IMG/VR virus record: IMGVR_UViG_3300030693_000022
Span: 1 to 37,517 of that record
Origin: a virus
Length of the DNA stretch: 37,517 nucleotides
Direction: 5' to 3' (one strand)
Below the pieces are notes generated by a model. The model was given only the letters and a program-made list of their open reading frames with translations, was not told the DNA's origin and made no database searches. The position numbers were made by a program, and so were the translations under genes. Below are positions 10,943 to 37,087 of the stretch, piece by piece. How positions within the stretch are numbered: position 1 is the first letter of the stretch; each line of letters begins with the position of its first letter.

Positions 10943-11290
10943 TCAGATCCCGAACCCGGTTTGGATGTAGACCGTCGCTGTGCTGCTGGCCGTGACGACC
11001 GTCCAGAATTGGCCCGGGGGAACTGTGAACGTTCCATCCTCTCCCGGCGCCATCAGGAGCACCTGCGTCGGAGTACCTGGCGTCGGGAAGACCGCATTGG
11101 TTGCGGCTTGGGCGGCGGTTGCTGCGAATACGACGGCGGCGGCCACTGCGCCAGAGTTGTAGATCTTCGCGACGATCTGGCTTCCCGAGAGCGGGCTCCC
11201 TGGCGTCAACTGGATTGCTGCGGGAGCAGCCGTCGCGCCGGCAATCGCAAAGGTCGGACTGATTGGCTGAAACGCACTGTCATTTTCCAT
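10943..11290 (-). CDS. Structural-block protein, 115 residues, unknown
   Basis: A small, uncharged, Ala/Thr/Val-rich protein with beta-strand pattern: FAIAGATAAPAAIQLTPGSPLSGSQIVAKIYNSGAVAAAVVFAA in the first half and DGTFTVPPGQFWTVVTASSTATVYIQTGFGI at the end. This fold-like pattern (short strands, a G-T-F-T-V-P-P-G-Q turn and a final V-Y-x-Q-T-G strand) is typical of small phage head proteins. ATG at 11290 has GAGG nearby and overlaps the end of the M48-type protease gene by 11 bases. Function not known. Confidence 0.65.
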   Translation of the reverse strand: MENDSAFQPISPTFAIAGATAAPAAIQLTPGSPLSGSQIVAKIYNSGAVAAAVVFAATAAQAATNAVFPTPGTPTQVLLMAPGEDGTFTVPPGQFWTVVTASSTATVYIQTGFGI

Positions 11291-11696
11291 GCACAGCCTC
11301 CTCGATTGACGGTGTGGTTAGCTTCAGGATGTGCATGATACGCTGCTCTGCTGTGGGATGAAGCGATCTGTCGCCTGGAAGGATCGGCCGCGGCGTGTAG
11401 ATATGTGGCGAATTGTGGGACGCGAGGTACAGCAGCAAGCCTTGCGCGTGGCCCTGACTCACTGCGAAAGCATCCGCCTCCAATTCATGCTGTCGACACA
11501 GCGCCGGCAAGTCCTTCCACCGCCTGGTGAACAACCAACCAACTCGCTTGAGCGCATGCCGGCCCCGGAGGTGCCCGCGCTCGTGAGCGATGACCGCATG
11601 GGCTTGCGAGGGTGGCAGATGCCGGAACCATCGCCCGGTAACGATGAAGGGGCCGATGCAGCGCGCGACCCAGGGGCGGTCGGTATGGAGGATCAT
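11280..11696 (-). CDS. M48-like zinc metalloprotease, minimal soluble form
   Basis: The 138-residue protein has the zinc site HERGH (H38, E39, H42), a downstream HELEADAFA (E71 as probable third ligand, D75) and HPTAEQRIMHIL near the end. These are the three conserved blocks of M48/M56-type peptidases (HExxH; E-x-E-A-D; S/L-HP...RI). The N-terminal part (FIVTGRWFRHLPPSQAHAVIAHERGH) also fits that family. It lacks the membrane segments of HtpX or Ste24 and is far shorter, so it is a bare catalytic core. It lies between the portal gene (ATGA overlap) and small head genes, so head maturation or injection processing is possible; that role is inferred. Confidence 0.85.
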   Translation of the reverse strand: MILHTDRPWVARCIGPFIVTGRWFRHLPPSQAHAVIAHERGHLRGRHALKRVGWLFTRRWKDLPALCRQHELEADAFAVSQGHAQGLLLYLASHNSPHIYTPRPILPGDRSLHPTAEQRIMHILKLTTPSIEEAVHGK

Positions 11697-29254: not shown

Positions 29255-29643
29255 TGACCACCCTCCACATCCTGACGCCTAGGGGTGAGCCGGTCGATAT
29301 GCCGGCTCTTCTCCCGTTCTATCGATTCATCGTCGCTGAGCCGGTCAGGATTGGCAAGGCTGGCCGTCTTGTCGATGGCTATTGGCTCAGGGCGCGCCAC
29401 AAGCACTGGCGCGAATCCCTGGGCCTCATGCAGCGCCTAGGTTGCGTTGAATGGGGGCAGACGACTCAGTATGAGTGGAACCTAGCTCAAAGGTCACGGA
29501 CTCCCGAACAGACTCGCGCAGCACCTTTATTCGGGTTGCCGATACCTGGTACACCTGGTTCAGTTCCTGAAGAAGACTGGCCCCCTCAGAACCGCGACTA
29601 TCCGGACGTGCTCCCGCCTGGAGGAGAGCGACGGAAGCCTTGA
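29254..29643 (+). CDS. Hypothetical protein at end of the rightward operon
   Basis: A 129-residue product from GTG 29254, whose G is the last base of the ATPase stop (TAGTG). The first 75 residues look folded (LHILTPRGEPVDMPALLPFYRFIVAEPVRIGKAGRLVDGYWLRARHKHWRESLGLMQRLGCVEWGQTT), the rest is Pro/Gly/Arg-rich. The last 218 bases overlap, on the opposite strand, the HTH gene 29426-29962. The overlap makes the C-terminal half doubtful; the first half is likely coding. Function unknown. Confidence 0.55.
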   Translation: MTTLHILTPRGEPVDMPALLPFYRFIVAEPVRIGKAGRLVDGYWLRARHKHWRESLGLMQRLGCVEWGQTTQYEWNLAQRSRTPEQTRAAPLFGLPIPGTPGSVPEEDWPPQNRDYPDVLPPGGERRKP

Positions 29644-29962
29644 GCTTGATGTCGGCCATGGCGGCGTTCTCGGGGTCGACCTGGGACAACTCGTGGATCG
29701 ACTCCAGCGCGTCGAGACGCATGCCGCCGATCAGGGACTCGAATTCGTCGGCAAACTCCTGAGCCGTCAGCGCGTCGAACTGGTCATCCGCCTTGACCTT
29801 CTCGATGGCGTTCCATGCCGCCCTGAGTGACGGGATCGACCGGACGTACTGCTGGAGTTTGAAGGGACGAATCCGAAGGTGCCGAGACGCCAGGATCAGG
29901 TCGCCCTTGCACTCCACGAGGATCTTGCGCACGCCGCTCTCGTTCATGCTGTCGAAGTTCAT
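29426..29962 (-). CDS. HTH protein, candidate small terminase subunit
   Basis: A 178-residue protein with an N-terminal helix-turn-helix-like segment (GVRKILVECKGDLILASRHLRIRPFKLQQYVRSIPSLRAAW) followed by long helices (ADDQFDALTAQEFADEFESLIGGMRLDALESIHELSQ...) and a final LLQELNQVYQVSATRIKVLRES. The pattern of HTH, central oligomerisation helices and variable tail, and the length (P22 small terminase 162 residues) fit a terminase small subunit or a regulator of packaging. It is in the ejection-protein operon, far from the large subunit. GGAG lies eight bases before ATG 29962. Call moderate. Confidence 0.6.
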   Translation of the reverse strand: MNFDSMNESGVRKILVECKGDLILASRHLRIRPFKLQQYVRSIPSLRAAWNAIEKVKADDQFDALTAQEFADEFESLIGGMRLDALESIHELSQVDPENAAMADIKLKASVALLQAGARPDSRGSEGASLLQELNQVYQVSATRIKVLRESVRESVTFELGSTHTESSAPIQRNLGAA

Positions 29963-30007: not shown

Positions 30008-31354
30008 TCATGCCTCAAGTCCTTTTGCATACCCCATCGCCTGCAGCTGGGGCAGTTGCTTCACCATGCGCCCCCTGCCTATGTCTGTGCGGTAGAAAGG
30101 CGAGTTCGGGATTTTCACCTTCTTCAGAGCCGAGTACGCAGACCTCCTTGCTCCGGAGATTGTCTTGCCCGTTCCAGTGCACACCAGCACGTAGTCTCCC
30201 GACGTGACCCAGTGCGGCATCTCCACCACCTTGCCGTCGATCTCGACCGGTGCCTCGCCCATCATGATCTCTGAGGGGTGGATGTGCTCCAGGTCATCCG
30301 CGGCCCCGTACACAGGGATGCCGCACACCTCTTTGTTAGTGAGCTTCGAATATGGGAAGTCGGGGATCGCCATGACGACAGAGATACCGACCTCTCCCTC
30401 CTCAAACTCGATGGTGTCGCGACCATGAAGAAGATCAAGCATCCACTGAACAGGGTCGCCGCGCATCTGAGATATGACGTTGTGGCGAAGCGGCCATCCG
30501 TCGCGCATCGTCCACTCCATGGGCCACGGGTGGCCCTTGTCATCGATGATGCAGTTGTTGTCGATGTAGCCGACATATCCGATCTTCTTCAGGTATGGCT
30601 CGATGGGGTAAAGCACCTGATCGGCCAGCTTGCTCTTGAGCACCGGCCTGGTCAGCGTTCCCATCTCCCCGGTGGCAACCCCAAGGTCACCATTCATGAG
30701 CTTCTTGTTCTCCCAATTCTCGTAGAGCCACTTGCTCCAGCCGCCGGGGCCGTACCAGCCCCCGACCGCCATCTCTATGCCGACCTTCTTCTCCTGGAGG
30801 ATGAAGCCCTCGGCCTTCGCGGCTTTACGGAGGTCTTCGCGGCCCTTCCAGCGCTGGAGCATGTGAACCATGTCACCAGCGTTATGGGCCACGTAGCTGA
30901 GCGCCTTGTTGGCATCGCCGCTGGGCTTGGACACGAGCATCTCGGGATGCTTTTTGACGTGAGCGATGGCAGCGTCATAGTCGTGAAACGCGATGGACTG
31001 CATGATCTCAATTCCATGCTGAGCCATTAGCTTTTGGCCGTGCTCGCGGTCAAGCTCCATCTTGGCGGCGTCGAGACCGCCACAGAAGACCGGGTATCCG
31101 CGCTTGATGAGCGCGTCCATCATGTCCACGTAGTACGTGTTGTCGGGCATGTAGATGAGGTCTGCCCAGTCGAACCACTTGCGCTGCACCTCGTTGAGAT
31201 CGCGCACCTTGTTGATGATCCCCTCGCCCGACCGGCGCTGCTCACCACCGGGCCGCGGACGGTCGTACCACAGGCATTGATGGCCGTAGTCCTGGGCACG
31301 CATCAGCATGTCCAGGCAGTTGGAGGTCGTGTCGATGCAGAGGATGCGGCTCAT
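30008..31354 (-). CDS. PurD-like ATP-grasp ligase
   Basis: The 448-residue protein has the three PurD-type domains: an N-terminal Rossmann-like part (RILCIDTTSNCLDMLMRAQDYGH), the ATP-grasp core with VSKPSGDANKA (K143), ILQEKKVGIEMAVGG, GDLGVATGEMG (D223) and WPMEWTMRDGWP (E280), and the C-terminal domain DYVLVCTGTGKTISGARRSAYSALKKV...YRTDIG. PurD joins glycine to phosphoribosylamine in purine synthesis; in this relative the canonical E-x-N metal site is E-x-T. It may couple an amino acid or acid to another acceptor. The gene follows the gp16-like ejection gene (ATGA), so it is expressed with virion genes. Family call firm; substrate unknown. Confidence 0.82.
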   Translation of the reverse strand: MSRILCIDTTSNCLDMLMRAQDYGHQCLWYDRPRPGGEQRRSGEGIINKVRDLNEVQRKWFDWADLIYMPDNTYYVDMMDALIKRGYPVFCGGLDAAKMELDREHGQKLMAQHGIEIMQSIAFHDYDAAIAHVKKHPEMLVSKPSGDANKALSYVAHNAGDMVHMLQRWKGREDLRKAAKAEGFILQEKKVGIEMAVGGWYGPGGWSKWLYENWENKKLMNGDLGVATGEMGTLTRPVLKSKLADQVLYPIEPYLKKIGYVGYIDNNCIIDDKGHPWPMEWTMRDGWPLRHNVISQMRGDPVQWMLDLLHGRDTIEFEEGEVGISVVMAIPDFPYSKLTNKEVCGIPVYGAADDLEHIHPSEIMMGEAPVEIDGKVVEMPHWVTSGDYVLVCTGTGKTISGARRSAYSALKKVKIPNSPFYRTDIGRGRMVKQLPQLQAMGYAKGLEA

Positions 31355-33042
31355 TGCGAGTCAGGCGGTTTAGGTATCTGATTTTGCTGGAGAATCGCCG
31401 CGAGCAGTGCAGGATTGTTGTGGGCGACGGCGAGCGCCTGCTGATAGGTGCTCACGCGCGGGACGGTCTGGGGGATGGCCCAGTTGCGCTGGCCGTAGTC
31501 GGAGAGCAGAGCTTTGCGGGCGAGCGGGCGGCCCAGGAGCACGTCTGCGGCCGCTCCGAAGTGTCCTTGCGTTGCCGCCAGACCTGCCGCCCCCATACTC
31601 GCCACGCTGTGGTCTGCCGCGCCTCCTGTGCGGGCCGTCGACTGCAGCGCGCGAGGGTACTGGTTGGCCGCCGTGGCGATGGTCTTGGCGTTTCCAGACA
31701 GCGGCTTGTCGTTGCCCACCTTCGCCAGCTTGGCCGCATTGATGTTGCCCATCTCGTCGGCTGCGGCCTCGTAGTCGTAGGACTTGGCCACGCGCTGGCG
31801 GGCGGACTGGAACCGCCCCACTAGGTCGCTGTTGCCGGTCTTCTCCAGGCCGCGCCCCACGAAGTCCTCGAGCGCGTTGGCCGTCGCCTTCTGAGCCGCG
31901 CCCAGCTCGTAGTCGCCCTTACGGTAGCTCTCCGTCGCCTGCGCCCGGAGTGACTTGATCTTGGGCATCGCGTAGCCGGGCGGGTAGTCCGACTGCTGGA
32001 GCACCTTGTGCAGATCGGTGAACTCCTTCGGCAGCGTCTTGCCCTCGTGCTGAGCGATGGTCGAGCGCTCCGACCAAATCTTGTCCGCGGCGTTGCGCAG
32101 CTGGTCGTCCGTGCGCCAGACGGGATTGCTGCCTTGAGGCCCGGCCGCGCCCCTCATGCCAACGCCCTGCTTGGTGGCCTTGTCCGCGTCGGTGATCTCC
32201 TTGACGATCGATCCGTACTCCTCGCGGATGGGCTTGAGGTTGGCCGGCAGGATGGGCGTCCCCTCGGGCAGTCCAAGGTCCTTGGCCGCCAGCTTGGGCA
32301 GCGCTGCCTCGTTCATCGCCGACGCCTGGTGCTCGGTCGCCGTCTTGCCGCCGATCCAGCCCAGCACCTTGGCAACAGGCGACGTCGTGCCGGTCATCTG
32401 GGGCGGCACCTTGATGCCAGAGTCGACTGCCTGCTTGGGGATGGTGACCTGTGGGGAGTCGGGGGCGAACTTGGGAGGCGTTGCGATGCCCCCCTCGTTG
32501 GCCTTGGCCGCTTTGACGCCGAGGAATCCCGGCGCTTGGTTGATCGCCTCATGCACACCCGCGCCGACCATCTGGCGCGCGGTGCCCGGTTCTCCGTAGT
32601 TGATCGCCTTCTCTGCGCCGGAACCGACCGCATCGACACCCTTGCCGATGAGCGACAGCGGGTTGTACTGAGCGATGGCCTTTCCGGCTGGCCCGGAGGG
32701 TTGGTAGGTCAGAGCGCTGCGCACGGAGTCGCGGAATCCCTGAGCATTCCCCTCGGGCTTGTCCCGGAGCGCATCCCGAGCCATCGCCGCCCCGCCCATG
32801 ACGTCGGACACAGGCTTGGCGATCATCCCGCTCGCCATGTTCAGCCCAGCCTCTCCGACCGGCCCCAGGATGGCGCTGATCACGCTCTTTAGCGCGGACG
32901 GCTTGGCGTCGTTCTCGGCCTCCTGCTTGGCGAGCCAGGAGGTATCGGGCTTGGATGGTGCGGCCGGCTTGGCCCAGTCAGGCACCGAGCCGGCACCGGA
33001 GGCAGCAGGCTTGGCCCAGTCGGGGACTTGTTCGCCAGCCAT
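31351..33042 (-). CDS. Putative ejection (internal virion) protein, P22 gp16-like position
   Basis: A 563-residue protein, mostly Ala/Gly/Lys-rich helix-forming sequence. It begins with two copies of VPDWAKPAA (about 6-14 and 20-28), a weak hydrophobic region (ALKSVISAILGPVGEAGLNMASGM), a long soluble body and a C-terminal part with AAGLAATQGHFGAAADVLLGRPLARKALL. Composition and its being third in the operon of three large internal-type proteins match P22 gp16, which enters the cell with the DNA. Start ATG overlaps the previous stop (TGATG). No enzyme motif found. Function by context. Confidence 0.65.
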   Translation of the reverse strand: MAGEQVPDWAKPAASGAGSVPDWAKPAAPSKPDTSWLAKQEAENDAKPSALKSVISAILGPVGEAGLNMASGMIAKPVSDVMGGAAMARDALRDKPEGNAQGFRDSVRSALTYQPSGPAGKAIAQYNPLSLIGKGVDAVGSGAEKAINYGEPGTARQMVGAGVHEAINQAPGFLGVKAAKANEGGIATPPKFAPDSPQVTIPKQAVDSGIKVPPQMTGTTSPVAKVLGWIGGKTATEHQASAMNEAALPKLAAKDLGLPEGTPILPANLKPIREEYGSIVKEITDADKATKQGVGMRGAAGPQGSNPVWRTDDQLRNAADKIWSERSTIAQHEGKTLPKEFTDLHKVLQQSDYPPGYAMPKIKSLRAQATESYRKGDYELGAAQKATANALEDFVGRGLEKTGNSDLVGRFQSARQRVAKSYDYEAAADEMGNINAAKLAKVGNDKPLSGNAKTIATAANQYPRALQSTARTGGAADHSVASMGAAGLAATQGHFGAAADVLLGRPLARKALLSDYGQRNWAIPQTVPRVSTYQQALAVAHNNPALLAAILQQNQIPKPPDSQ

Positions 33043-34544
33043 CAGGGATCGATCCCGAAGTGCGCCTTGAACTGCGCCTTCATCTCAGGGTGGGCCTTGA
33101 CGTAGGCGATATCGTCCGCACTCGGCTTGGGTTGCCCCGGCGCCGTGTTGCGGTTCTTGCGCAACTCTGTCGCCACGTCCTGGGGTGCCTGCCGGCCGCG
33201 ATCCATTTCCTTGCGCATCACCGCCACCTTGGCCGCGAACGCCTCAGGGCTGTCCGATGCTGCCAGCAACTCGCGCGCGTGCTCCTTGTCGCTGACGGTT
33301 GCAGTGCCCTTGGGGTTGATCGACCGAGCGTACTCGTTGACGAACGTGTTGATCGACGTGAGGAATGCGCCCGTAGCCGGATCGTTGGCTTCCGTCTTGC
33401 CTGCGATGATGGCCTTGTTGAGGCTGCGCCAGTCACCTCGAGGCACCTTGGAGGCGGCATCCATCATGATGTCCGCGCCGCCCTGTGCCGCGCCTGCTGC
33501 GATGGCCGTGTTGGCGCCGGCTGCACCTGCGGTACGCATTCCGGAGGTCTCGAATGCGTTGTCTGCCGCGTAGTTCTTCATGTCGTATTGCGGGTTGATC
33601 TTGAGCGCCTTCTCCAGCACCTTCTCCCGCAGACCACCCTTGGTGCTGAGAGACTTCGGATCGACCTTTCCTGCTGCGACGGCCTGGGCCACAAGGTCAA
33701 CGTCCCCCGGATCGGCGGACCCGCCACCAGAGGCCGCCTTCTGAACGCGAGCCTTGGCCGCCTTCGCCTCGTTGAGATCGATCTGAGACTGACGCAACGG
33801 CGCCTTGGCATCCGGTGCGGCGCCCTCCATCCGATCCTCTGCGCGCCCCTTGCGCCCGGCGTCCTGACCCGCGATCTGAGCACGCAGCCCCGCGCTATCC
33901 GCCTGTTCCTTGCGCAGCATCAGGTTGAGCTCGGCCAGTTGCTGCTTTCCCTCCTGCGAAAGCATCTCCTTGTGCTGCATCAGCGCGTAGTACAGCGGCA
34001 TGCCGGTGATGCCCTGCTCCTGCAGCTTGGAGGCCATGTCATGCAGGTTGGGCAGCGCAGACTGGATCGCCGCCGTGACCTGGGGAGGCGGCGGCGGGAG
34101 GCCCTGGGATGGGTCTTGCCCTTGGGGTGGCGGCTGGAGGCTCTGAGGGGCCTGCTGGGTCGGTTGCTGGGGCGGTGCCTTGGGTGAGGTGTAGGGCGGC
34201 AACTGCGGCGGTTGCTGCTGCTGAGGAGGGGGCCCCATCTGTTGCGGCGGCGGCCCCATCTGCCGGCCCGGCATCTGACCGGGCGGCATCATGGGCGGGC
34301 GCTGCTGGGGCGGTATGCCTTGCGGAGGCTGCGGCATTCCCTGCCCTTGAGGGGGCATCGGCTGCGACTGCGCGCCGGGCGGGGGCGGCAATGGTGGCGG
34401 GGGCTGAGCGATCGTGTTCGCCCACGCCGACAGACCCTGGTTCTGCTGGTTCTGCTGGTCGATCAGCTGCTGATAGCGAGCTCGCTGAGTGGCCTCGTCA
34501 AGGCCCTCGTAGTAGCCAGAGACTGCGCTTCCGTAGAGTGGCAT
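33042..34544 (-). CDS. Putative ejection protein with Pro/Gln-rich N-terminus, P22 gp20-like position
   Basis: A 500-residue protein. After a short folded start (SAVSGYYEGLDEATQRARYQQLIDQQNQQNQGL), residues about 48-160 are a Pro/Gln/Met/Gly-rich low-complexity segment (PPPPLPPPPGAQ..., MPPQGQGMPQPPQ). The rest is charged and helical (about 165-500). Such disordered, Pro/Gln-rich proteins are common among phage internal proteins that must unfold to pass through the tail. It follows the first ejection gene with 1 base between stop and start and precedes the third. P22 gp20 is 471 residues. Role by context. Confidence 0.65.
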   Translation of the reverse strand: MPLYGSAVSGYYEGLDEATQRARYQQLIDQQNQQNQGLSAWANTIAQPPPPLPPPPGAQSQPMPPQGQGMPQPPQGIPPQQRPPMMPPGQMPGRQMGPPPQQMGPPPQQQQPPQLPPYTSPKAPPQQPTQQAPQSLQPPPQGQDPSQGLPPPPPQVTAAIQSALPNLHDMASKLQEQGITGMPLYYALMQHKEMLSQEGKQQLAELNLMLRKEQADSAGLRAQIAGQDAGRKGRAEDRMEGAAPDAKAPLRQSQIDLNEAKAAKARVQKAASGGGSADPGDVDLVAQAVAAGKVDPKSLSTKGGLREKVLEKALKINPQYDMKNYAADNAFETSGMRTAGAAGANTAIAAGAAQGGADIMMDAASKVPRGDWRSLNKAIIAGKTEANDPATGAFLTSINTFVNEYARSINPKGTATVSDKEHARELLAASDSPEAFAAKVAVMRKEMDRGRQAPQDVATELRKNRNTAPGQPKPSADDIAYVKAHPEMKAQFKAHFGIDP

Positions 34545-34545
34545 A

Positions 34546-35538
34546 TCAGTCTCCAGACCCGCCGCTGCCGCCGCTCAGGTCGTTGTTCGCGTACTGGCTT
34601 CCGTCCGATCCGTAATAGGAGTTCCCGGAGTTGAGCGACGACGGGCTGTTGAACCAGCTGCTCAAACTAGACCACGGCGTCTGGCCGCTGGAGTTGGCAG
34701 TGTTGAGTCCGCCTACCGCGTTGCCCAATCCCTTCAACGCTCCGGCCTGCTGCTGGGCCGCGAACTGGTTGCCGGCGAGGGTGTTGCTGTAGGCGTTCGC
34801 GCCGGCCCCGCTGCCGTAGTTCATGTAAGGGATAGCCTGGTTTTGCTGCTGCTGATACGGCGACATGGCCGTGGCCAGACCGGATGCATAGGCTGAGGCG
34901 TTGGCGCCAGGCTGAGCCGCGGCGTACTGCTGCGCGGTGAGCGGGATCTGGCTCGCCTGCCCCTGATCCTGAAGTCCTTGCTGGCTCAGCGCGGCCAAAC
35001 CCTGAGCGCCCTGTGTTTGGCGCTGCAGCTGCTGGTTCTGCCAATCGATGTTGAAATTCTCGTTCGCCTGCTGCGCCATCCCCGCGCCCGCGCCCGACTG
35101 CCCCAGCCCGTACTGGCTGGAGATCGCGTTGGCCTGATCCCCGACCTGCTGCTGCGTTCGGTTGTACAGAGCCTGCTGCGGGTCGAACGCCGTCTGATAC
35201 AGCTGCTGACCAGCCTGCTGCAGCTGCTGACCAGCCGCCCCATAGGATTGCCCCAACTGCTGTTGCTGCTGTACGTACGGCTGGTAGTTGATCGCGTTGG
35301 CTTGCTGCAGGGACTGGTACAGCCCCTGGTCGGAGATGTTGTTCAGGCCTCCGTTGGCGTTGAGTTGAGACTGATCGGTGGACTGGTTGCCCTGCCACCC
35401 CGCGTCCGCCCCACTCAGGCCGGTCGGCGTGTACATGGTGTTGCCGGCTCCACCTGTGGTGCCAGTCTTTCCGCCACCCGAGGTCGAGTTGGCGGCTCCG
35501 TAAAGTGACGCGGCAGCGCCTATCCAGGCCGCCGGCAC
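34546..35538 (-). CDS. Putative ejection protein, Gln-rich, P22 gp7-like position
   Basis: A 330-residue protein with start GPAAWIGAAASLYGAANSTSGG-like (GTG at 35538 is read as Met), then a Gln-rich region (about 60-230, for example QQQQQLGQSYGAAGQQLQQAGQQLYQ) and a Ser/Gly/Asn-rich tail ending GGSGGSGD. It has no cofactor or membrane signature beyond a short Ala-rich start. It is the first of three ejection-type genes in this operon. GGTGG lies five bases upstream of the GTG. An upstream five-codon frame from ATG (35553-35555) ends just before it. Function by context. Confidence 0.62.
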   Translation of the reverse strand: MPAAWIGAAASLYGAANSTSGGGKTGTTGGAGNTMYTPTGLSGADAGWQGNQSTDQSQLNANGGLNNISDQGLYQSLQQANAINYQPYVQQQQQLGQSYGAAGQQLQQAGQQLYQTAFDPQQALYNRTQQQVGDQANAISSQYGLGQSGAGAGMAQQANENFNIDWQNQQLQRQTQGAQGLAALSQQGLQDQGQASQIPLTAQQYAAAQPGANASAYASGLATAMSPYQQQQNQAIPYMNYGSGAGANAYSNTLAGNQFAAQQQAGALKGLGNAVGGLNTANSSGQTPWSSLSSWFNSPSSLNSGNSYYGSDGSQYANNDLSGGSGGSGD

Positions 35539-35564: not shown

Positions 35565-35584
35565 CTGACATTTTAGGAACTCCT

Positions 35585-36190
35585 ATGGATGAAGTCTGGT
35601 TGCCGATTGGCGGATACGAAGGTCTTTACTCGGTCAGCAACCTGGGCCGAATAAGGAGTGAGGCCAGAACCTGCAAGGCCGGTTTCAACAAGATCAGGAA
35701 GGTTAAGGAGCGCATCATGGCGCTCCCCGTATGCCACAGTGATCACGGGTACAGACAGGTTAGGCTGAATCGAGACAACGGAGGTAGGACATTCCTTGTC
35801 CACCTCTTGGTGATCCGAACGTTCGTCGGCGAACCACCCGAGGGAATGGAATGCGCCCACCTCGATGGAGACAGAACCAACCCCGCATTGTCCAACCTTG
35901 AGTGGAAGACTCACGTCGAAAATGAAAGGGACAAGAGGCTTCACGGGACATTCCTTAGCGGTGAAAAATGCCCCTGGTCGAAGCTGACTGACGAACAGGT
36001 CGCAGCCATACGTGCCGACAAAAGGCGGCAATGGCTGATCGCTGAATCGTACGGAATGTCTCAATGCCAAATCTCCAGGATCATTGGCCGGAAGCGCCGT
36101 GTAACGCAACCTGTTGCGCATCGAACGACCACCCCTCAGGACTCCACGGCACGCGCCGACCCCGATCCAGCCGGATGCACACCGTCATGA
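35585..36190 (+). CDS. NUMOD4-HNH homing endonuclease
   Basis: A 201-residue protein with NUMOD4 at 4-30 (WLPIGGYEGLYSVSNLGRIRS), HNH at 70-110 (FLVHLLVIRTFVGEPPEGMECAHLDGDRTNPALSNLEWKTH, with H73, H92, N104) and a C-terminal DNA-binding unit (SGEKCPWSKLTDEQVAAIRADKRRQWLIAESYGMSQCQISRIIGRKRR). It should cut intron- or gene-free sites and move by homing. Its last 36 residues (about 166-201) lie antisense over the end of the 2OG oxygenase gene; the family normally ends near residue 173, so the tail is probably read-through. AGGA lies upstream of ATG 35585. Confidence 0.88.
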   Translation: MDEVWLPIGGYEGLYSVSNLGRIRSEARTCKAGFNKIRKVKERIMALPVCHSDHGYRQVRLNRDNGGRTFLVHLLVIRTFVGEPPEGMECAHLDGDRTNPALSNLEWKTHVENERDKRLHGTFLSGEKCPWSKLTDEQVAAIRADKRRQWLIAESYGMSQCQISRIIGRKRRVTQPVAHRTTTPQDSTARADPDPAGCTPS

Positions 36191-36716
36191 CGATGTGGTC
36201 ATCATGACCCTCGTTGACGACGTTGTGCGACACGTCATTTCTGAACCAGTGCACATCGCCAGCCTTCTGAACCAGCCTCTCCTGGTCATAGCAAAACGCC
36301 GCCTGTGGGTTGCTCTTGAGGCAGATGTTGAACTTGTCGTAGAACTCGGGATGCCATCCCCTGTCCACGTGGCCGTAGATCGTCTTGCCGGGCAGCAGTC
36401 GATAGATGAACACGCCCCCCAGCATCTCGCCTTGCACCATCGACATGAGTCCGAAGATCAGCGATCGGGCCGATGCAAGATGATCGATCGACTCGTACCA
36501 GTCGGGGATGTGCGCGTCGGAGAACTGGCTCCAGTCGCCGGTCTCGATGCACGGGCGTTCGTCCTTGTAGCGCAAGAAGATGTCCTGCGACTCCCGGTGC
36601 GGCCCCTTGACCGACAGCCTGCATGGGTTGCGATCCCACAGGTCAGGCCGGCGCTGGAGGTTGAGCAGCAGCGGCGTCACGTCCACGCCCTGGGTGATGA
36701 GGGTGTAGTTCTTCAT
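36081..36716 (-). CDS. 2OG-Fe(II) oxygenase, Asp/Asn beta-hydroxylase-type
   Basis: A 211-residue protein. In the second half it has LLPGKTIYGHVDRGWHPEFYDKFNICL with H116-x-D118, then H164 (NDVSHNVVNEG) and R182 (VCIRLD). This is the HxD...H metal site and Arg for 2-oxoglutarate of the aspartyl/asparaginyl beta-hydroxylase class. It would hydroxylate an amino acid side chain or another substrate, using iron, oxygen and 2-oxoglutarate. Its gene is ATGA-overlapped with the cupin gene upstream. Its C-terminus overlaps the homing endonuclease gene by 110 bases. Fold call strong, substrate unknown. Confidence 0.78.
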   Translation of the reverse strand: MKNYTLITQGVDVTPLLLNLQRRPDLWDRNPCRLSVKGPHRESQDIFLRYKDERPCIETGDWSQFSDAHIPDWYESIDHLASARSLIFGLMSMVQGEMLGGVFIYRLLPGKTIYGHVDRGWHPEFYDKFNICLKSNPQAAFCYDQERLVQKAGDVHWFRNDVSHNVVNEGHDDHIVMTVCIRLDRGRRVPWSPEGWSFDAQQVALHGASGQ

Positions 36717-37087
36717 GCGATCACCTGGTGGTCGATCTTGTCAGGGTCGGTCAGGCCACCAACGTCCGGCCAAACGCACGCCCACACGATGTCGGTGACC
36801 GCCTCGATGCCGTGCACATGGTGAGCGATCAGGTTGACGGTGGCCGGCGCGATCAGCTCGATCACCTTGCCCTGGAAGATCAGGCGCGCGGTGCCAAGCA
36901 CCAGGATGCCGTTGTGGTTGATCTTGTGCTTGTGCTGACGGATGGCCTTGCCTGCCGGGACGGTGTACACCTTGGCATACCCCTTGTCGGCCCACAGGTG
37001 CGCCATGTCTACGCCGTGAGCCTCCAGGTCAGGGACGGGCCTGCCGCGGGGGATCACGGTCTCGGTTGCGGCGAATGAGTCGATCAC
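36713..37087 (-). CDS. Cupin-fold protein paired with the 2OG oxygenase
   Basis: A 124-residue protein. From about residue 38 it has a small cupin pattern: AKVYTVPAGKAIRQHKHKINHNGILVLGTARLIFQGKVIELIAPATVNLIAHHVHGIEAVTDIVWACVW. The motif H-x-H-x-x-x-H (H52, H54, H58), G60...G65 turn and HHVHGIEA (H89-H92) could bind metal as in cupins. Start GTG 37087 has GGAGGG nine bases before it. It shares an operon with the Asp-hydroxylase-type oxygenase (ATGA overlap), so the two probably act on the same pathway. Function not known. Confidence 0.7.
   Translation of the reverse strand: MIDSFAATETVIPRGRPVPDLEAHGVDMAHLWADKGYAKVYTVPAGKAIRQHKHKINHNGILVLGTARLIFQGKVIELIAPATVNLIAHHVHGIEAVTDIVWACVWPDVGGLTDPDKIDHQVIA

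Follow-up and report, generated by a model that had tools for sequence, protein, structure and literature searches.

The closest described relatives of the protein studied here are the GAR synthetases (PurD; TIGR00877; PDB 2yw2, 2ys6 and 1gso), with which it shares the full-length fold, the ATP-grasp, a C-terminal GARS_C domain and the Lys, Glu and Arg residues of the ATP site, but from which it differs in that GxGGREHAL, GPEAPL, GGMG and GDPE are absent, Thr stands in place of Asn, and an aspartate, Asp265, has been gained. Two haloarchaeal proteins, Hlac_1553 and rrnAC0307, lack a GARS_N match, the Asp of GDPE (the importance of which is stated in the same work) and a normal N-terminal P-loop, and were denied GAR synthetase function by Brown et al. 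in 2011 on criteria similar to those used here (PMC3261824). Compared by description, our ligase likewise has neither the GARS_N match nor that Asp, whereas the haloarchaeal proteins are cellular and encoded outside virion operons. L-amino acid ligases (BacD/YwfE), PurK and biotin carboxylase have the ATP-grasp core in common with it, at Foldseek E values of roughly 1e-15 to 1e-16, and are clearly further from the ligase than PurD; GARS_C is absent from these enzymes. In phages, ATP-grasp ligases were reportedly predicted by Iyer et al. in 2009 to modify proteins or make peptides. Phage sets of ATP-grasp and amidoligase genes are exemplified by the Pa11-type phage TC6 (PMC6209634), and surveys of marine and vent viruses have listed a virus-enriched or shared "phosphoribosylamine-glycine ligase" (PMC11360552, PMC12043954). 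Some of these survey genes may belong to the family described below, and reports of purine genes in viral metagenomes may in part rest on such misannotated members, which we offer as a lead. No PurD-like ATP-grasp encoded in the ejection operon of a phage was found in the literature that we searched, a search to which the 2009 work is external.

The ligase gene and its place in the ejection operon

The window, by which we mean the whole stretch of DNA analysed, is a virus record of 37.5 kb that encodes a terminase, a portal-like protein (head-tail adaptor PHROG), a major head protein, a VapE-type helicase and a lysozyme. It also encodes an FtsK gamma domain phage protein (21443-22060, plus strand; PF09397, 68 bits) and, in the head operon, a small M48-type peptidase-like protein (11280-11696, minus strand; PF01435, 34.7 bits). 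The ligase gene runs from an ATG to a TGA with no internal stop, so that the complete PurD-like ATP-grasp frame proposed in an earlier note on this DNA is indeed present, and the ORF and its neighbors are listed in Table 1. Where the gene meets the gp16-like gene upstream of it, the sequence reads CGCAATGAGC, an ATGA overlap, and exactly this 4-nt overlap is general, being found in 51 of the 86 relatives that have an upstream same-strand ORF, where gene calls are heuristic ORF choices. Junction and conserved synteny therefore agree with the placement of the gene in an ejection-protein operon, as the same note had it.

Table 1. Features of the ligase operon in the window
Feature	Coordinates	Strand	Basis
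Hypothetical protein of 178 aa encoded next after the ligase (cluster c10)	29426..29962	-	Synteny in 23 loci
PurD-like ATP-grasp ligase (P0001), 448 aa	30008..31354	-	ORF; GARS_A/GARS_C; AF2 pLDDT 93.3; PurD heads the PDB fold matches
gp16-like ejection protein (563 aa); its gene overlaps that of the ligase by ATGA	31351..33042	-	Syntenic with L097 gp16-like
gp15-like Gln/Pro-rich ejection protein (cluster c4)	33042..34544	-	Conserved synteny
gp14-like ejection protein (cluster c3)	34546..35538	-	Synteny
Asp/Asn beta-hydroxylase-like 2OG-Fe(II) oxygenase	36081..36716	-	PF05118, alignment, AF2
Small cupin-like protein (cluster c2)	36713..37087	-	Relative's Cupin_2 score; PHROGs

In order of transcription the genes are those for the cupin, the hydroxylase, the gp14-, gp15- and gp16-like proteins, the ligase and c10, and this order recurs elsewhere, with the cupin cluster in 65 loci, the hydroxylase in 50 and a GNAT in 10. 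The gp16-like protein of L097 matches a DNA ejection protein family (phrog_26400), and in the cultured Pseudomonas phage PfAn1 the gene at the gp14-like position is annotated as "internal virion protein, controls DNA ejection". On PF05118 the hydroxylase scored under the cut-off in the window (18.8 bits) and over it in the relative L055 (28.4 bits); H116-x-D118 and H164 are invariant in the alignment, and its AF2 model (pLDDT 86) found its best folds in L-proline hydroxylases, with AspH among the matches as well (best E 2e-8). For the cupin-like protein, a relative (L088) reached 24.0 bits on Cupin_2, just under the cut-off, and the PHROG matches were to tail fibre adhesin families. Between the hydroxylase and gp14-like genes, and antisense to them, lies a homing-endonuclease-like gene with NUMOD4 and HNH_3 (P0002, 35585-36190, plus strand); in the relative L031 the hydroxylase gene is followed directly by gp14. 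A minus-strand ORF at 35573-36121 was rejected as a member of the operon because the NUMOD4/HNH gene occupies that stretch.

In these podovirus-like phages the ligase gene sits directly behind the gene for the last ejection protein, the gp16-like one, and keeps this position across clades that are less than 40% identical. In a sample of 55 gp14-seeded loci, picked without regard to the ligase and with enough downstream sequence, the ligase was found downstream in 45, and a search of whole records showed that two of the remaining loci do have it, at another place in the record or at the end of a contig. It is absent from five records of 44-47 kb, near-complete relatives that have the gp14-15-16 genes, and in PfAn1 the series hydroxylase-GNAT-gp14-15-16 is followed by a tail gene in its place. 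The ligase is thus a frequent but optional part of this module and no universal requirement for ejection. Neither is it locked to one gp16, since gp16 types do not follow ligase closeness: the type found in the window is shared with the distant family members L051 and L063, and the nearer L004 and L031 have another.

Fold, active site and separation from GAR synthetase

Structure prediction, which the earlier note had suggested as a check, gave an AF2 model, built with 32 relatives, of high confidence (pLDDT as in Table 1), and GAR synthetases take the first 15 places among its PDB matches, with E from 3e-29 to 2e-23 (2yw2, E 3e-29, TM 0.73), followed by the PurK and biotin carboxylase folds at E of about 1e-16. 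Together with an hhalign match to a Paraburkholderia PurD (99.9%, 393 columns), these comparisons assign the ligase the three-domain fold of PurD. Pfam recognized GARS_A (28.4 bits, cut-off 27) and GARS_C (37.3 bits, cut-off 34.8), and the N domain is visible in the predicted fold; the claim that all three PurD-type domains are present stands to that extent, but GARS_N had no Pfam match and the PurD-specific loop of the N domain is lost.

The ATP side of the site is common to both groups. In one alignment containing both 18 PurDs and 32 family members, E100, K143, G146, E194, K217, G225, E280, R284, R422 and a near-invariant D424 are shared, and K143, E194, K217, E280, R284 and R422 are unchanged in all 32 members, so that the ATP lysine and the Mg acidic residues are conserved as expected of an ATP-grasp. 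Position 265, a Tyr in PurD, is an Asp in nearly all members, on a strand where biotin carboxylase and RimK carry a metal carboxylate. The metal motif reads E280-W-T282-M-R284-D-G286-W287-P288, just as first described, and E280, T282, R284, G286, W287 and P288 are invariant in 22 as well as in 32 family members, which makes it neither a chance variant nor a sequencing error. Asn is likewise missing from this motif in PurT and PurK, so its replacement by Thr need not destroy the metal site. Pairwise dN/dS, calculable for five pairs, was 0.03-0.14, which indicates strong purifying selection; on this ground and that of residue conservation a degenerate protein was ruled out. A catalytically dead virion protein, structural or moonlighting, that merely retains the fold would account for the location of the gene among virion protein genes and for the change of Asn to Thr, but the unchanged catalytic residues, the near-invariant Asp265 at the site of a metal carboxylate in other ATP-grasps, and the conservation of the motifs in cellular members as well make it improbable.

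The substrate side, on the other hand, has departed from PurD. G-x-G-G-R-E-H-A-L is replaced, with the residues of this N-terminal loop absent, and GPEAPL is lost; GPNTGGMGAY has become G-x-x-x-G-E-x-G-T (GGMG to GEMG), and E-x-N-x-R-x-G-D-P-E has become E-x-T-x-R-x-G-W-P. The R[LF]GDPE motif (PS00184) reads R-x-G-W-P, with no acid after the Gly, in 32 of 32 members, whereas GDPE is found in 18 of 18 PurDs, and the N-domain loop is missing from every family member aligned. On the purD equivalog model (TIGR00877) the ligase scored 88.9 bits against a cut-off of 288, and family copies from 11 genomes scored 65-109; ten of these genomes also encode a separate bona fide PurD (434-574 bits), and no separate PurD above the cut-off was seen in the eleventh. 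Conversely, on the family profile phage-type members reach about 600-690 bits and PurDs 60-160. An auxiliary purine gene, that is, a working PurD raising nucleotide supply, would agree with the passing GARS_A and GARS_C scores and with the PurD-like auxiliary metabolic genes listed for viruses in the surveys cited above, but is most improbable given the purD score, the loss of GDPE and of the loop, the judgment of Brown et al. on the haloarchaeal proteins, and the purD of their own in 10 of the 11 genomes that hold a copy. Among the main ORFs of the window, moreover, no other purine-pathway gene was found, as had been noted from the start. A purine role was therefore ruled out on motifs, score and separate purD genes and, judged by its sequence and predicted fold, the phage ligase has the PurD fold and yet is not a GAR synthetase.

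Family members in viruses and cells

Relatives of the ligase are common in uncultivated viruses: a first scan found 66 viral relatives, and a profile-style scan at least 590 IMG/VR stretches that encode one, a lower bound obtained by pattern matching. Among reference phages, 1 of 50,697 records has a close relative (MW202796, 41%); the other tblastn matches have identities below 28%, at least four of them are annotated as purD or phosphoribosylamine-glycine ligase and look like host sequence, and these matches were set aside. Limnohabitans phage DC33 (L250, PQ492659.1) is a 39-kb record filed under Inoviridae, which at such a size looks like a taxonomy error. In BFVD nothing viral of the ligase fold was closer than E 8e-9 and 8% identity; in PHROGs the window ligase was unmatched, and one relative had marginal matches only, to unnamed families. 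PADLOC gave no match, and a defense gene was accordingly rejected. Twelve bacterial genome contigs carry a family gene, five of them from Paraburkholderia, and a sample of 250 genomes from the Paraburkholderia family held just two phage-type copies, both already known; the distribution of copies there is rare and prophage-like.

Cellular relatives extend further. A tblastn search of plasmids led to a Halarchaeum protein (362 bits) with E-F-T-x-R-F-G-Y-P and TGEMGT, the same signature type as the family, as well as proteins of Roseomonas and Sphingomonas. Members were present in 11 of 287 genomes of Patescibacteria (349-474 bits) and in 9 of 200 of Acetobacteraceae (184-255 bits), the latter also with one phage-type copy. 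These cellular members retain the same active-site motifs, and trees, which were quick searches without bootstrap, separated PurD (support 100) from the phage clade (98) and the cellular clade (90); an Uhrbacteria member (L080), included in one of the family alignments (A2), groups with the cellular copies. As far as alignment and tree can tell, the phage genes form a single branch within a broader family derived from PurD. Because it has members in Patescibacteria, a haloarchaeon and Acetobacteraceae, this family did not originate in phages or, at the least, extends beyond them. The picture of a phage ligase with an altered acceptor side drawn in the earlier note thus holds for the alteration, but the substitutions are family-wide rather than this gene's own, and the cellular groups share the signature. 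What emerges is a widespread ligase family whose members are at present annotated as "phosphoribosylglycinamide synthetase C domain-containing" or as hypothetical.

The genome neighbors of the cellular copies vary, and the copies are sited away from virion genes, for which reason the ancestral acceptor was probably no virion protein; the phage enzyme and the cellular ones may differ in their acceptors. FemAB or GNAT adjoins three cellular copies, a glycosyltransferase or UDP-galactopyranose mutase gene lies near two Acetobacteraceae copies, and the Roseomonas copy is near glycosyltransferases. In one Patescibacteria locus (L285, 4836-10833) the ligase gene stands in a polyamine-type operon with two saccharopine-dehydrogenase-like genes, an Orn/DAP/Arg decarboxylase and an FMN reductase, with MetK nearby, and this locus is a possible clue to the acceptor. 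Another Patescibacteria genome entry (L284, 6202-8946) holds a tandem pair of family ligases.

Candidate acceptors of the phage enzyme

Our reading as a whole is that the gene encodes an intact PurD-derived carboxylate-amine ligase that makes no GAR and serves a new acceptor, perhaps in the ejection module and late in infection, and we consider the chances that all of this holds to be evenly balanced. That the phage protein is an active non-GAR ligase is, by itself, very probable. From the chemistry of ATP-grasp enzymes and the kept site, it would use ATP to turn a carboxylate, probably an amino acid, into an acyl phosphate, which would then be attacked by an amine other than phosphoribosylamine. 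More loosely, the acceptor might be found in the ejection module, either as one of the virion proteins or as a component packed alongside them, and be modified late in infection with the hydroxylase, cupin or GNAT.

Provided that the ligase is active and does not make GAR, an acceptor in the ejection module, such as a virion or ejection protein, is favored by where the gene lies, by its overlap with the gene before it and by the modification-type enzymes that accompany it, and a small amine or glycan by the cellular contexts; we would give either acceptor a chance near, though below, even. The proposal of the earlier note, a ligase with a new acceptor rather than a purine step, is upheld in its second half by motifs, score and separate purD, and the new acceptor is the best inference; nothing favors DNA or lipid. 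DNA modification was, in fact, rejected, as no supporting gene was seen and the ligase gene stands with late virion genes. A C-terminal tail that could mark a shared acceptor was sought across gp14, gp15 and gp16, and none was common to all.

It is quite possible, without being probable, that the product is instead a small metabolite, such as an amino-acyl polyamine, a peptide or an amino-acylated sugar, acting in late infection or packaging with no protein being modified. The substrate of PurD is itself a small molecule, and the polyamine-type operon and the sugar-related neighbors of the Acetobacteraceae and Roseomonas copies point the same way, but these cellular contexts vary, with one or few cases behind each, the window showed no gene for a dedicated biosynthetic partner, and the phage gene stays behind the ejection proteins even in distant clades. 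The most specific form of the ejection-module reading, in which the phage enzyme, together with the hydroxylase, cupin or GNAT, couples an ejection protein to an amino acid or some other acid, would amount to a new post-translational modification system of the DNA-injection machinery, drawn from a PurD-derived ligase family not recognized before and present in cells too, and is doubtful. Should the acceptor indeed be an ejection protein, chemistry on the DNA-injection apparatus would be revealed, of which we know no earlier description. Prophage-type copies in cultured Paraburkholderia make the question of the substrate directly testable.

A separate observation concerns the gp16-like proteins. 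That of the window carries a 9-aa repeat, VPDWAKPAA, at its N-terminus, and the N-termini of its relatives hold two to three copies of a motif of about 5-12 aa (VPDWAKPAA, FDPDAYLA, GNAFADLPP, GPWEKY). An exact repeat of a kind reached by no more than 1% of shuffles occurs in 19 of 87 distinct proteins, and by eye such repeats can also be seen in a phage, L226, that lacks the ligase. It is possibly a packaging or sorting tag.
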